DNA of 64,000 nucleotides from Methyloterricola oryzae. Its GTDB lineage: Bacteria; Pseudomonadota; Gammaproteobacteria; Methylococcales; Methylococcaceae. The translations under genes were made by a program, and so were the position numbers. The stretch covers positions 124,001 to 188,000 of the forward strand of contig NZ_JYNS01000001.1 of NCBI RefSeq assembly GCF_000934725.1. The letters run 5' to 3'. Under the pieces are notes generated by a model. It searched no databases and had not been told where the DNA came from. It was given only the letters and a program-made list of their open reading frames with translations. Of this stretch, positions 10,039 through 60,905 are shown piece after piece; position 1 is the stretch's first letter, and the number at the start of each line of letters is the position of its first letter.

Positions 10039-10114
<76 letters not shown>

Positions 10115-26230: not shown

Positions 26231-26338
26231 CCGGGGGGTTAAGCCTCCACCCATCCCACCCGGCGACCAGGCACTTGGTGCACTGGCACCCCGCAGGGCG
26301 TGACGATGAGTGTGTGTGGTTGCCAAAACAAGCCATGC

Positions 26339-56694: not shown

Positions 56695-57348
56695 ATGAAG
56701 CACACGACCATGCCGGATAGCCGGACCGCCCTACCCGGGCGTTCCACCCCCATGCCAGTCCCTCAACACCATTTCGTGAACGGCCACAGCATGCCACCGC
56801 CCTACCCGGAAGGGCTGGAGACCGCGATCTTCGGTCTGGGCTGCTTCTGGGGCGCGGAGAGACGCTTCTGGCAGCAGGCCGGAGTATATATCACCGCCGT
56901 CGGCTACGCAGGTGGCTTCACGCCTAACCCGAGCTATGAGGAAGTCTGTGCCGGCCTCACGGGACATGCGGAAGTGGTGCTGGTGGTGTTCAACCCCGGT
57001 GTCATCTCCTATCAGGATCTGCTGCGTCTGTTCTGGACATCCCATGATCCCACCCAAGGCATGCGCCAGGGTAACGACTTCGGCACCCAGTACCGCTCCG
57101 CCATCTACACCTACTCGGAAGACCAGCGCAGGCTTGCTGTGGAAAGCCGGCAAATCTATCAGAAAGCGCTGCAACGGGCCGGCTTTGGAGCCATTACCAC
57201 CGAAATCGCGCCGGCGCCGGACTTCTATTACGCGGAAGCCTACCACCAGCAGTATCTGGCCAAGAACCCAAGCGGCTATTGCGGCCTGGGAGGCACTGGG
57301 GTGGCCTGCCCTGAAGCAGCGGCGGTGTCGCAGACCGGCGACGATTGA
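56695..57348 (+). CDS. msrA: Peptide methionine sulfoxide reductase MsrA
   Basis: A 217-residue repair enzyme reducing S-methionine sulfoxide in oxidised proteins. The active site [13 protein letters not shown] (C50) is intact, with [26 protein letters not shown] and FFWTSHDPT-like [26 protein letters not shown]-terminal [12 protein letters not shown] holds resolving cysteines. AAGGGG precedes the ATG at 56695 by five bases. It has the longer N-terminus of E. coli-type MsrA. Confidence 0.95.
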
Positions 57349-57405
57349 AGCCGCTCGCACGGTTTCGCTATCATCAGCGCCAGTTCTCAATTTATGGATT
57401 CCTGC

Positions 57406-58200
57406 ATGCCAAGACTGTTGGTCCTTCTGGGCGCTCTCCTGTTGCTCTCAGGCTGTGCGACCACCCCACTGGGGCGCACCCAATTCGCCATGATGCCGGA
57501 CAGCCAGATGGCACAGATGGGCAATCAGGCTTTCGTCAACATCAAGGGCAAAACTCCCTTGGACCGCGATCTTCGCGCCAATACCTACGTGGAATGCGTG
57601 GCCGGCGCCATCGTGAAAGAGACGGGTGGGCAATGGGAAGTGGTCGTCTTCCAGGACGCCACACCGAATGCCTTTGCCCTGCCGGGCGGCAAGATCGGGG
57701 TGCACAGCGGCATTTTCGCCGTGGCCACCAACCAAGACCAACTCGCTACGGTGCTGGCCCACGAGGTCGCCCACGTCCTGGCTCGTCATACCAACGAGCG
57801 CGTGTCCCAGCAAATGGCCCTGAGCCAAGGGCTCAATGTGCTGCAGGCGATCGCCAGCCCGACTAGCGCCACAGGCCAAAGCCTGATGGGGCTGCTCGGC
57901 GTGGGAGCGCAATACGGTATCCTGCTGCCTTACAACCGGCTGCAGGAGAGCGAGGCCGACCTGCTGGGTCTGGATCTAATGGCCAAGGCCGGATTCGACC
58001 CGCGTCAAAGCCTGGATCTGTGGCGAAATATGGACCGTGCCGGCGGAGGGTCCCAGCCGGTGGAATTTCTCTCCACCCATCCCTCACACGGCACGCGCAT
58101 GAAAGACCTGGAAGCGCGGATCCCGTCTGCCTTGACGCTCATGCAGCAAGCTCAAGCCGGGGGCAATAAACCGCAATGCGACAGCCTGCGGGCACGTTGA
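57406..58200 (+). CDS. M48 family metallopeptidase lipoprotein
   Basis: A 264-residue protein with a lipoprotein signal (LLVLLGALLLLSGC; lipobox Cys17) and an M48 zinc peptidase domain. The zinc motif is in ATVLAHEVAHVLARHTNERV (H119, E120, H123), and the downstream metal Glu is in RLQESEADLLGLDLMAKAGFDP. It is LoiP/YcaL-like and probably degrades misfolded envelope proteins. The start at 57406 places the signal peptide at the N-terminus; an earlier ATG (57394) adds four residues. Confidence 0.92.
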   Translation: MPRLLVLLGALLLLSGCATTPLGRTQFAMMPDSQMAQMGNQAFVNIKGKTPLDRDLRANTYVECVAGAIVKETGGQWEVVVFQDATPNAFALPGGKIGVHSGIFAVATNQDQLATVLAHEVAHVLARHTNERVSQQMALSQGLNVLQAIASPTSATGQSLMGLLGVGAQYGILLPYNRLQESEADLLGLDLMAKAGFDPRQSLDLWRNMDRAGGGSQPVEFLSTHPSHGTRMKDLEARIPSALTLMQQAQAGGNKPQCDSLRAR

Positions 58201-58244: not shown

Positions 58245-58275
58245 AAAAAATGCAGGGATTTTTGGATCCCTGCAT
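58245..58275 (-). terminator. Intrinsic terminator on the minus strand
   Basis: On the minus strand a TGCAGGGAT / ATCCCTGCA stem (58274-58266 with 58259-58251, six-base loop) is followed by six T residues (58250-58245). On the plus strand the hairpin is followed by CTAAAG, so it does not look like an intrinsic terminator for the upstream gene. Confidence 0.8.
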
Positions 58276-58345
58276 CTAAAGAGGAGGTTTGAAACACACA
58301 GTTCGTGCATCAATCACTTGAAAAGGCAAATCCCCAACAAGTTGA
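58245..58345 (-). ncRNA. Candidate small RNA with anti-Shine-Dalgarno motif
   Basis: The minus-strand terminator has no minus-strand protein gene to serve: the next gene upstream on that strand is over 2 kb away, past regB and regA. Just before the hairpin the minus strand reads CCTCCTCTTTA (58287-58277), complementary to a strong ribosome site. Terminator plus an exposed C/U-rich seed is the architecture of several bacterial regulatory RNAs. The 5' end is unknown; no convincing promoter was found, so 58345 is only a placeholder. Confidence 0.35.
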
Positions 58346-58380
58346 GCGAAAGGTTACCAAGGGGTATTGACTTTTGGAAT

Positions 58381-58395
58381 GTGACAAATTGTCGC
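58381..58395. promoter_or_regulatory. Candidate RegA/PrrA binding site upstream of regB
   Basis: GTGAC-AAATT-GTCGC is an inverted repeat with half sites close to GCGAC/GTCGC. RegA/PrrA-type regulators are described to bind GCGNC-Nx-GNCGC. AATTGTCGC recurs at 58485-58493, nearer the regB start. Confidence 0.4.
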
Positions 58396-58518
58396 GTAAT
58401 CCGGGCGGTTGCGGCCGCAGGCCGTATTCAGCGACCCGGGTCAAACGGGTGAGTACCGGTTCCCGCCGAGCGGCAGACGCGGCGAATTGTCGCATGCTTG
58501 ATTCCTGCCTCCTGCTGC

Positions 58519-58524
58519 TAGAAT
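58519..58524 (+). promoter_or_regulatory. -10 box immediately upstream of regB
   Basis: TAGAAT lies seven bases before the regB ATG, with a weak TTGATT 15 bases further up. If used, the transcript would start at or within a base or two of the start codon, so it would be leaderless. Confidence 0.35.
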
Positions 58525-58531
58525 CGCGCGA

Positions 58532-59884
58532 ATGAACGCCGAACCGCTGATCAGCATCCCCATTCCGGCCATTTCCGACAGTTCCACTCGCAGGAACCTC
58601 GGCTGGCTGTTCATCCTGCGCAACCTGATGATCTGCGTGGAGGCGCTGACTGTCCTAATCAGCGTCTATGGCCTCGACATACCTTTGCACCAGGCGGCAC
58701 TCACCGGCATCATCACGGCCCAGGTCGCACTCAACTGGTATGCCTGGCTGCGCCTGAGCATCGACCGCCCGGTCACCGACATCGAACTGGCGGCGCAATT
58801 GGGCGCCGACGTGCTGGCCATCACCTCCATCCTGTACTGGACCGGCGGCGCCACCAATCCCATCGCCTGGTTCTTCCTGCTCCCCCTCATCATCGCGGCC
58901 ACCGTGCTGCCGCAGGCGTTCACCTGGTACATGGTGGTTTTCACCTCCGCCTGTTACACCATCCTCATGGGCTACTACGAACCCCTGCCCAAGATCGTGC
59001 CCATGACGCTCAACGAGGACACGCCACCCCACCTCCACGCCATGATGGAACACCACGACATCGAGTTGCACGTGTTCGGCATGTGGTTCGGCTTCGTCTT
59101 CAGCGCCGTGCTGGTAGCCTATTTCGTCGTCGGCATGGCAGAAACCCTGCGTGCCCGCGAGCGCAAGCTGGCGGAGGTGCGCGAGCAGGCCCTGCGCAAC
59201 GAGCGCGTCGTGGCGCTGGGCACCCTGGCCGCCGGCGCCGCCCATGAGATGGGCACGCCTCTGGGAACCATGGCCATCCTGATCCACGATCTGGAGCAGG
59301 AGTACGAACAGGCCGAATGCCCCGACATGCTGGAAAAGATGAAGATCCTCAGGGAGCAGGTGAACCGTTGCAAGGAAGCGCTTTCGGTCATGTCCGCTTC
59401 AGCCGGGGAGATGCGGGCGGAGGCGGGCCATGTGATGCCGGTTTCCAGCTACCTGGACGAAGTGGTGGAAAGCTGGCGGCAGCAGCGCCCCGGCTCCGCG
59501 CTGGAGTACCTCAAACAGGGTTATGAGCCCAGCCCGAGCATCCTGGCGGAGCGAACCCTCACCCACGCGCTCATCAATATCCTCAACAACGCCGCCGACG
59601 TATCCCCCCACAAGGTCGAACTGTCGGCCCGCTGGACCTTCGAATACGCCAGCCTGGAAATTCGCGACGAGGGTCCGGGCATCACCCCGGCGGTCTCCGC
59701 GCGCATCGGCAAGGCGCCCGTCTCCAGCAAGGAACATGGCCTGGGCGTGGGCCTGTTCCTGGCCTTCGCCGCCATTGAGCGCCTGGGCGGGCAGATCCAG
59801 ATGCTGCCGCGCAAGGATGGCACCGGAACCAAGACCCGCATCACCCTGCCACTTTCACCCTCGAACGAAAACTGGACCGCATGA
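58532..59884 (+). CDS. regB: Redox sensor histidine kinase RegB/PrrB/ActS family
   Basis: A 450-residue membrane kinase with six hydrophobic segments (residues about 25-200). It carries the family quinone-site motif GGATNPI (105-111; usual form GGxxNPF) and the H-box AAHEMGTPLGTMA with phospho-acceptor H238. A cysteine at 280 (QVNRCKEAL) matches the redox-active cysteine of RegB (C265). The ATPase domain follows (NILNNAADVSPH, IRDEGPGITP, GLGVGLFLAFAAIERLGG). It senses respiratory quinone/redox state and phosphorylates RegA. The start codon lies just after a -10-like box. The stop overlaps the regA start by four bases. Confidence 0.93.
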   Translation: MNAEPLISIPIPAISDSSTRRNLGWLFILRNLMICVEALTVLISVYGLDIPLHQAALTGIITAQVALNWYAWLRLSIDRPVTDIELAAQLGADVLAITSILYWTGGATNPIAWFFLLPLIIAATVLPQAFTWYMVVFTSACYTILMGYYEPLPKIVPMTLNEDTPPHLHAMMEHHDIELHVFGMWFGFVFSAVLVAYFVVGMAETLRARERKLAEVREQALRNERVVALGTLAAGAAHEMGTPLGTMAILIHDLEQEYEQAECPDMLEKMKILREQVNRCKEALSVMSASAGEMRAEAGHVMPVSSYLDEVVESWRQQRPGSALEYLKQGYEPSPSILAERTLTHALINILNNAADVSPHKVELSARWTFEYASLEIRDEGPGITPAVSARIGKAPVSSKEHGLGVGLFLAFAAIERLGGQIQMLPRKDGTGTKTRITLPLSPSNENWTA

Positions 59885-60435
59885 GCGACACGACCGAAAC
59901 CTCAGAGAATCCTCGCCTGCTGCTGGTGGACGACGACAAAACGTTCTGCATGGTGCTGCGGCAAGCCCTGGAGAAACGGCATTTCGAGGTCTTCGTCGCC
60001 CACGACCTGGAGGCCGGCATCGCCACCGCAGAGGAAGTGGAACCGGAGTATGCCGTCATCGACCTGCGCATCGGCCACGACTCGGGGCTGAACATGGTCA
60101 AGCGCCTGGTGGAACTGGACGACAATACGCGCATCGTCATGCTTACCGGGTTTGCCAGCATCGCCACCGCCGTGGAGGCCATCAAGCTTGGGGCCATCCA
60201 TTACCTCACCAAGCCGGCGGACGCGGACGAGATCATGACAGCGCTGCACAAGGACGCCGGCGATGACAAGGTGGAGATCAAGGACAAGCCCTTATCCGTG
60301 AAGCGTCTGGAATGGGAACACCTGCAGAAGGTGCTGGTGGAGCACGACGGCAACATCTCGGCGGCGGCACGCGCACTCGGGATGCATCGGCGCACCCTCC
60401 AAAGAAAACTTGAGAAGCGCCCGGTCAAGGACTGA
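59881..60435 (+). CDS. regA: Response regulator RegA/PrrA/ActR family
   Basis: A 184-residue regulator. The receiver has LLLVDDDKTFC, phospho-acceptor D61 (VIDLRIGHDSG), and MLTGFASIATAVEAIKLGAIHYLTKPADADEI. A Fis-type helix-turn-helix ends the protein (RLEWEHLQKVL, then HDGNISAAARALGMHRRTLQRKLEKRPV), the near-invariant end of this family. It controls genes of energy metabolism (respiration, carbon and nitrogen assimilation) in response to redox state; the targets here are unknown. Confidence 0.95.
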   Translation: MSDTTETSENPRLLLVDDDKTFCMVLRQALEKRHFEVFVAHDLEAGIATAEEVEPEYAVIDLRIGHDSGLNMVKRLVELDDNTRIVMLTGFASIATAVEAIKLGAIHYLTKPADADEIMTALHKDAGDDKVEIKDKPLSVKRLEWEHLQKVLVEHDGNISAAARALGMHRRTLQRKLEKRPVKD

Positions 60436-60446
60436 ACGCGCCCCCA

Positions 60447-60905
60447 TCACTCCAGGCCTAGGATGAACTCCCACTGGGCCTGGGTCACGGGCATCACCGA
60501 CAGGCGATTGCCGCGGCGAACCAGGGCAAAGCCGCCCAGTTCCGGCCGGTCCTTCAACTCGCTCAAGGGGATGGTGCGCTTGAGCTTGCGCTCGAACTGC
60601 ACGTCCACCATGAGCCAGCGCGGATTGGCCGGATCGCTGCCGGAATCGTAATGAATGTGCTGCGGGTCGAAGGCGGTGTGATCAGGGTAGGCTTCCCGCG
60701 CGATCCGGGCGATGCCGACGATGCCCGGCACCTCGCAGTTGGAGTGGTAGAAGAAGACCGGGTCGCCCACCTTCATCTCGTCGCGCATCATGTTGCGCGC
60801 CTGATAGTTGCGCACGCCATCCCAAGGCTCGGTCTGCCCGGGGCGGGACGCCAGGTCGTCGATGCTGAAGGCGCCCGGTTCGCTTTTCATCAGCCAGTAC
60901 CGCAT
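60447..60905 (-). CDS. EVE-domain protein
   Basis: A 152-residue PUA-like EVE-domain protein (YWLMKSEPGAFSIDDLA, WDGVRNYQARNMMRDEMKVGDPVFFYHSNC, GIVGIARI, and WLMVDVQFERKLKRTIPL). Family members bind modified bases in DNA or RNA. It overlaps the end of serB by 16 bases on the same strand. The cargo is unknown; it is a common housekeeping gene in proteobacteria and not by itself a defence marker. Confidence 0.92.
   Translation of the reverse strand: MRYWLMKSEPGAFSIDDLASRPGQTEPWDGVRNYQARNMMRDEMKVGDPVFFYHSNCEVPGIVGIARIAREAYPDHTAFDPQHIHYDSGSDPANPRWLMVDVQFERKLKRTIPLSELKDRPELGGFALVRRGNRLSVMPVTQAQWEFILGLE

Follow-up and report, generated by a model that had tools for sequence, protein, structure and literature searches.

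How is a terminator-like hairpin to be explained when it stands on the minus strand between an M48 peptidase gene (end 58200) and regB (start 58532), with no protein gene leading into it? In the window, by which we mean the whole stretch of 64,000 nucleotides of Methyloterricola oryzae DNA that was analyzed, a first-pass annotation had placed in this interval an unannotated regulatory RNA linked to redox control. That reading gains support from a promoter with a RegA-type box, a covarying structure, an exposed CCUCC and a conserved divergence from regB. Judging from sequence, we consider it likely that the window encodes a RegA-activated, trans-acting anti-Shine-Dalgarno small RNA (sRNA) of ~99 nt. 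The features of the locus are collected in Table 1.

Table 1 Features of the predicted small RNA locus and neighboring genes, in window coordinates
Feature	Position	Strand	Basis or remark
msrA, peptide methionine sulfoxide reductase, conserved convergent-side neighbor	56695..57348	+	PMSR
M48 peptidase gene, convergent with small RNA	57394..58200	+	Peptidase_M48
Small RNA gene, predicted, ~99 nt	58245..58343	-	Promoter spacing, covariance-model match, covariation
Intrinsic terminator hairpin	58248..58277, U-run 58250-58245	-	Fold; two-sided changes in 8/10 modeled pairs
Single-stranded CCUCCUCUU seed, anti-Shine-Dalgarno	58279..58287	-	Unpaired probability 0.96-1.0 in window RNA
Stem-loop 2, GCAC...GUGC type	58289..58313	-	Fold; two-sided changes in 3/4 modeled pairs
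Stem-loop 1 as folded, variable sequence	58314..58345	-	Minimum-energy fold; folds of relatives
Extended -10, TGG-TAACCT	58351..58356	-	TA...T spacing conserved across boxes
RegA/RegR-type box GCGACAATTTGTCACATT	58378..58395	-	Sole exact GCGRCAATWTGYCACATT match in own genome; same box upstream of relatives' RNAs
Second RegA-type box GCGGCGAATTGTCGCATG, facing regB	58479..58496	+	2 mismatches to GCGRCAANTTGYCRCATT
regB, redox sensor kinase, divergent from small RNA	58532..59884	+	HATPase_c; NCBIfam ActS/PrrB/RegB
regA, response regulator with Fis-type HTH	59881..60435	+	Response_reg + HTH_8; NCBIfam ActR/PrrA/RegA

Anatomy and conservation of the predicted RNA

The minus-strand hairpin, ATGCAGGGAT-ccaaaa-ATCCCTGCAT at 58275-58250, has 10 perfect pairs, and its terminator stem reaches 12 pairs when two flanking A-U pairs are counted (58277-58248). 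The nine pairs first described were thus an undercount, while the hairpin itself and a T-run confined to the minus strand were correctly seen: the run at 58250-58245 lies 3' of the hairpin, and the plus strand has no T-run after it. The C/U-rich motif that had been noted before the stem is CCTCCTCTTTA at 58287-58277, and the absence of a minus-strand protein gene for more than 2 kb upstream also holds, the nearest likely one being the open reading frame (ORF) at 60447-60905. Terminator-like sites in the region number 4 against a shuffle mean of 4.4, which is no excess, and the 58277-58248 hairpin has the longest stem. It is conservation that lifts this hairpin above chance.

The 109-nt stretch 58350-58242 has a fold z of -3.66, with equal stability in 1 of 200 shuffles, and its minimum-energy fold comprises three stem-loops and leaves the seed unpaired. 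The RNA start at 58343/58344 was inferred from the -10 element and the end was placed at the U-run. Over 21 members, the unpaired probability of CCUCCU averages 0.96 (lowest 0.75) and the unpaired fraction per RNA in the best fold is 0.34-0.49; the 5' part minus the terminator is of moderate stability only, with a mean z of -1.36 over 66 RNAs. In the folds of several relatives, the loop of stem-loop 1 contains CCUCC. The locus shows the conserved secondary structure and exposed seed by which a trans-acting bacterial sRNA is recognized. Three ORFs on the minus strand, 52-63 aa in length, overlap the RNA without lying wholly inside it; the 63-aa ORF, the one of the three that was scanned against Pfam, gave no match.

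Conservation of the hairpin in relatives, which the first-pass annotation had named beforehand as a point to check, was found, and the reading as an RNA gene stands. When 61 genomes (its own and 60 relatives) were searched with the intergenic stretch, 22 matched, its own included; most matches center on the upstream palindrome-like box, away from the hairpin, and a few (for example L017, L020 and L024) lack an RNA of this kind. In many relatives, the box is followed in order by a -10-like element at near-constant distance, stem-loops, TCCTCCTCTT and a GCAGGG terminator. Because RNAalifold retained the terminator alone from a broad MAFFT alignment of the whole RNA, a covariance model (R1) was built from stem-loop 2 to the terminator, using 8 sequences and an author-made structure string and leaving the box out. 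R1 scores 70.7 bits on the window at 58245-58311, the window sequence being among the 8 model builders, and it has matches at E 0.01 or better in 49 of 301 genomes of the order, Methylococcales. All 64 matches were inspected. A box (at most 3 mismatches, 61-87 nt upstream) accompanies 38 of the 45 matches of at least 26 bits; five have no box, and the other two, both in G038 (L077, a clipped contig), were placed wrongly by the script, the box being present there under other locus ids. Since a box with at most 3 mismatches was seen in only 7 of the 19 matches under 26 bits, false matches probably account for some of the 49 genomes, and the failure of R1 to match the other 252 is probably due to fast sequence drift.

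The fold of stem-loop 2 and the terminator is supported by covariation. Across 34 aligned members, two-sided changes occur in 11 of 14 modeled pairs and 94.7% of alignment cells are paired, a pair-change count or pairing reached by 0 of 500 shuffles, in an alignment that was fitted to the structure and holds related sequences, both of which favor this result. On a wider scale, when 84,980 species genomes were scanned for the box with CCTCCT after it, 33 stretches were returned against ~0.2 expected at equal base frequencies. These comprise 19 from Methylococcus-kind methanotrophs, 1 from an unplaced gammaproteobacterium, 12 from ammonia oxidizers and 1 from Desulfobulbaceae, and not all of them resemble the window RNA; L036 and L056, for example, look like coding sequence.

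Promoter and the probable link to RegB/RegA

How would such an RNA be transcribed? It had been stated that no good promoter was found, a claim overturned by the RegA-type box at 58395-58378, which stands 21 nt upstream of the extended -10 at 58356-58351; from this -10, TGG-TAACCT, the RNA start is expected near 58343. The same spacing recurs elsewhere, as a TA...T element lies 19-30 nt downstream of the box in 80 of 82 exact boxes, at one single position in 61, compared with 10/82 and 4/82 in control stretches. The 82 usable boxes remain from 94 exact boxes in L118-L214 after the removal of 9 duplicates and 3 too close to a locus end; they represent the loci of two box searches and 40 further places picked to spread over genera, and many come from close relatives and are not independent. 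Toward regB, the second box stands 22 nt upstream of TAGAAT (58519-58524), and its orientation toward regB makes joint control of the kinase gene and the sRNA probable. The regB -10 (TAGAAT) ends 7 nt ahead of the ATG (window 58519-58532), with a similar appearance in Methylococcus-type relatives, and the regB message may be leaderless.

Does the box serve RegA, or could the RNA be real and its box belong to another regulator? We consider another regulator unlikely. The placement of RegA at the box is predicted from sequence, and the RegR sites in the portion of PMC4064962 consulted, which resemble the window box, are loose and variably spaced. However, the box has the GCGNC...GNCGC-type form of the RegA/RegR regulon (its second half-site here is GTCAC), its half-sites GCGRC..GYCRC agree with RegR boxes, and boxes point toward regB as well as toward the sRNA. 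Of the 301 genomes of the order, 249 contain the exact box GCGRCAATWTGYCACATT and none contains the reversed pattern. Moreover, the box tracks RegA, which has a match at E 1e-30 in 279 of the 301 genomes: among good-quality genomes, the exact box is present in 195 of 220 with RegA versus 2 of 8 without (Fisher p = 9e-5, in a test that ignores kinship and on genomes that are partly fragmented). This co-occurrence is supportive of the RegA link, short of proof. The two good-quality genomes that carry the box and have no RegA match (G132 and G253), which would favor another regulator, are both in many contigs, and the absence of RegA from a genome can be an assembly gap. The association also holds inside one genus of Methylothermaceae (g19, n = 10), where 7 of 7 RegA-bearing genomes have an R1 match and the box, versus an exact box in 0 of 3 genomes without RegA (G060, G063 and G072; G063 has a weak boxless R1 match of 22.6 bits), and this looks like a natural co-loss of RegA and box.

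The promoter anatomy suggests activation by a RegA-type regulator, and the neighboring genes encode a candidate pair. The top NCBIfam model for regB is ActS/PrrB/RegB at 236 bits, under its 350-bit cut-off, and that for regA is ActR/PrrA/RegA at 191 bits, under its 250-bit cut-off. In Methylomonas sp. DH-1, according to the portion of PMC13274454 consulted, RegB/RegA is activated by methanol redox stress and RegA was located by ChIP at the feo promoter, not at the sRNA boxes.

Gene neighborhood and sibling RNAs

The surroundings of the box were compared in fetched stretches of 0.7-3 kb, with more distant neighbors out of view. regB lies divergently upstream of 32 of the 82 boxes (two of these belong to regB itself and lack a terminator), M48 and/or msrA lie convergent downstream at 28 of the 32, and six further boxes have only M48 or msrA within the stretch. 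M48 is convergent in many Methylococcaceae relatives too, and msrA keeps to this side in other families of the order. Since the arrangement is common to Methylococcaceae and family f8, presumably the Methylomonadaceae, the sRNA locus is probably ancestral to the order.

An intrinsic terminator follows within 190 nt downstream in 68 of 82 boxes, against 8 of 82 on the mirror side and 89 of 582 random stretches (Fisher p = 2e-22). Since the box consensus derives from sRNA promoters, the 68/82 is partly ascertainment; it is no proof that most RegA sites head sRNAs, and RegA sites of weaker sequence at protein genes would escape such a search. The 14 boxes for which no terminator was found include several in family f6 and the two at regB; L166 was counted among them, yet R1 finds an RNA there (L070, 63.5 bits).

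Genomes of family f8 hold sibling RNAs with UAUCCUUCUCUU-type seeds, often with AUGCGGC terminators and in tandem in some loci. In G124, at least five box-headed siblings were identified by eye (L097, L122, L128, L134 and L145), one of which has msrA 0.2 kb downstream and regB ~1 kb upstream. Short, multi-copy RNAs with C/U-rich anti-ribosome-site motifs are also known as NmsR/RcoF in Neisseria and as CcsR/cuckoo RNAs in alphaproteobacteria, sibling sRNAs whose regulators and hosts are other than those of the window RNA. Seven Nitrosomonas-type loci (L046, L052, L054, L032, L038, L041 and L051) have the same box with a different structured RNA downstream, in which an outer TGCTTTCAGT...ACTGAAAGCA-type stem encloses an inner hairpin with CCCTCC; the four that were scanned (L046, L052, L054 and L041) gave no Rfam match, and ammonia oxidizers could have in it an independent RegA-type sRNA. 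At L034, in Desulfobulbaceae, the box and CCTCCT lie beside distant homologues of RegB (23% identity) and RegA (46%), for which transfer or convergence is possible.

An alternative hypothesis is that the sRNA works chiefly in cis, with divergent transcription or its product tuning regB and with no trans targets. Its place beside regB is conserved, the two boxes lie ~100 bp apart, and ArcZ is reported, in the part of PMC11331407 consulted, to feed back on arcB. We regard this as highly improbable, as sibling copies occur away from regB in other families, the anti-Shine-Dalgarno seed is the best-conserved part of the RNA, and regB appears nearly leaderless and so would present no ribosome-binding site for pairing. 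That no RNA gene exists, and that the hairpin is the M48 terminator or a product of chance, is scarcely credible: terminator-like sites are no commoner than in shuffles and the M48 gene ends 50 nt away, but the U-run is confined to the minus strand, the promoter, seed and covarying stems are conserved, and the same kind of unit occurs in other families without an adjoining M48 gene. On the box-terminator link, covariation and promoter spacing, this explanation was rejected.

Candidate targets and place among known sRNAs

If the RNA is trans-acting, as we favor, which messages would it address? The CCUCC seed is a generic motif; its largely unpaired state fits pairing at ribosome-binding sites, in the manner described for RoxS (PMC4409812). 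An hfq gene was found in the organism's own genome. Perfect complements of the 9-nt seed before an ATG (pattern AAGAGGAGGN{3,9}ATG) were sought in 8 genomes with a reversed control. The own genome has 4 sites versus 3 in the control, which is no excess; the other seven have 7, 4, 11, 39, 8, 3 and 7 sites versus 0, 2, 2, 4, 2, 0 and 1 reversed. In G026, a single repeated sequence ahead of a transposon-like ORF (read in three copies) accounts for 31 of the 39 sites, which were set aside; the reading of sites left out five others, four in G002 and one in G026. The four own sites precede both pmoB copies and the genes for an FKBP-type isomerase and a YgaP-like membrane protein. Seed complements also recur before a proton-pumping pyrophosphatase gene in three genomes (L227, L248 and L257) and before a Pfam-less gene of unknown function in four (L219, L241, L244 and L249), both being candidate targets.

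For pmoB, which was picked after the target sites had been seen, duplex energies were compared with a background of genes from 200 kb per genome, using hand-cut seeds and each gene's best-scoring candidate start. Genes scoring at least as well as pmoB number 0 of 133 in G040, 15 of 152 in G023, 3 of 139 in G013 (among the genomes that suggested pmoB) and 1 of 141 in G124, so that pmoB ranks first or close to it in G040, G013 and G124 and at about the tenth percentile of 152 in G023. With the ribosomal anti-Shine-Dalgarno tail in place of the seed, 80, 49, 64 and 30 genes match pmoB (G040, G023, G013 and G124), which argues that pmoB is not merely a strong Shine-Dalgarno site. A swap test then set each genome's own sRNA against those of other families on pmoB, using script-cut seeds. 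A pmoB match was present in 24 of 30 genomes and 22 were scored, G026 being dropped for lack of a terminator found by the script and G051 for not being entered. The own sRNA was best of all only in G040 and in G023 and G031, which have an identical seed and leader; it was middling in 17 genomes and poor in G012 (12 of 13 foreign sRNAs equal) and G185 (11 of 11 equal). Because the swap test was mixed, pmoB, which encodes part of the particulate methane monooxygenase, remains a candidate target only.

Rfam 15 at gathering thresholds returned no family at the window RNA or at 39 related loci; three weak signals fell below threshold, with ncS16 the best and FinP likewise only weak. Elsewhere in the window, at 26238-26332 and 10042-10114, both minus strand, Rfam reports a t44 RNA and a tRNA, which are unrelated. 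The ArcZ and RoxS/RsaE families are present in Rfam; the window RNA matches neither, and its likeness is one of function only with RoxS/RsaE and one of gene position and control only with ArcZ. For RoxS/RsaE, a redox two-component system (ResDE/SrrAB) activates an sRNA whose C-rich stretch hits the ribosome-binding site, as given in the portion of PMC4409812 consulted; these RNAs belong to Firmicutes (Bacillus subtilis and Staphylococcus aureus), whereas the window RNA has a RegA-type regulator and the seed CCUCCUCUU or UAUCCUUCUCUU. ArcZ of Enterobacterales adjoins the redox kinase gene arcB, is controlled by the cognate regulator and ends in a Rho-independent terminator, but lies downstream of arcB in reverse direction and is ArcA-repressed (PMC11331407, in part), whereas the window gene is divergent upstream of regB. 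PcrZ of Rhodobacter sphaeroides, likened here by description only, is in the network of PrrA, a RegA-family regulator, and differs in acting on photosynthesis genes (PMC4263372, in part). The weak signal for ncS16 (Burkholderia, RF02866) covers the seed and terminator of the window RNA; at 18.5 bits against a 48-bit cut-off this family was rejected, and it differs in having its own start within the 3'UTR of ompA (PMC5688073, in part).

The open-licence literature on RegA and sRNAs, on methanotroph small RNAs and on pmoB and small RNAs gave no description of the window RNA. In the portions consulted, a Methylomonas sp. DH-1 transcriptome names only rnpB, 6S, SRP RNA and tmRNA (PMC6373157), a Methylosinus sporium study names EcpR1 and alpha-r45, which are alphaproteobacterial RNAs (PMC12403871), and PMC7720504 concerns a synthetic sRNA; a term search of the main text of PMC13274454 found no occurrence of 'small RNA' or 'noncoding'. 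The window RNA seems to be a new sRNA family, seemingly undescribed before.

We propose that RegB would phosphorylate RegA, which would then bind the box at 58395-58378 and activate the extended -10 promoter. The transcript is predicted to fold into two stem-loops, a single-stranded seed and a GCAGGG terminator hairpin with a U-tail. The exposed C/U stretch would pair with GGAGG ribosome-binding sites of selected mRNAs and block their translation, and Hfq would probably assist this pairing. In Methylococcales, which also carry sibling copies, the sRNA would thereby add a post-transcriptional layer to redox control. It is possible, and we offer this only tentatively, that RegA in gammaproteobacterial methanotrophs governs a regulon of sibling sRNAs in several copies, of which one was fixed ancestrally in the place between msrA and regB, that the seeds of these sRNAs pair at the pmoB start, and that redox imbalance would thus directly throttle translation of the particulate methane monooxygenase.

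Little is understood of how methane oxidation responds to oxygen and to the redox state of the cell, and a conserved sRNA family that is apparently under redox control provides a definite gene for deletion in strains that can be cultured. It would add, beside RoxS/RsaE and ArcZ, a case of a redox two-component system working via a small RNA. Should targets come to include pmoB or other central genes, RegB/RegA would be tied to the main enzyme of biological methane consumption.
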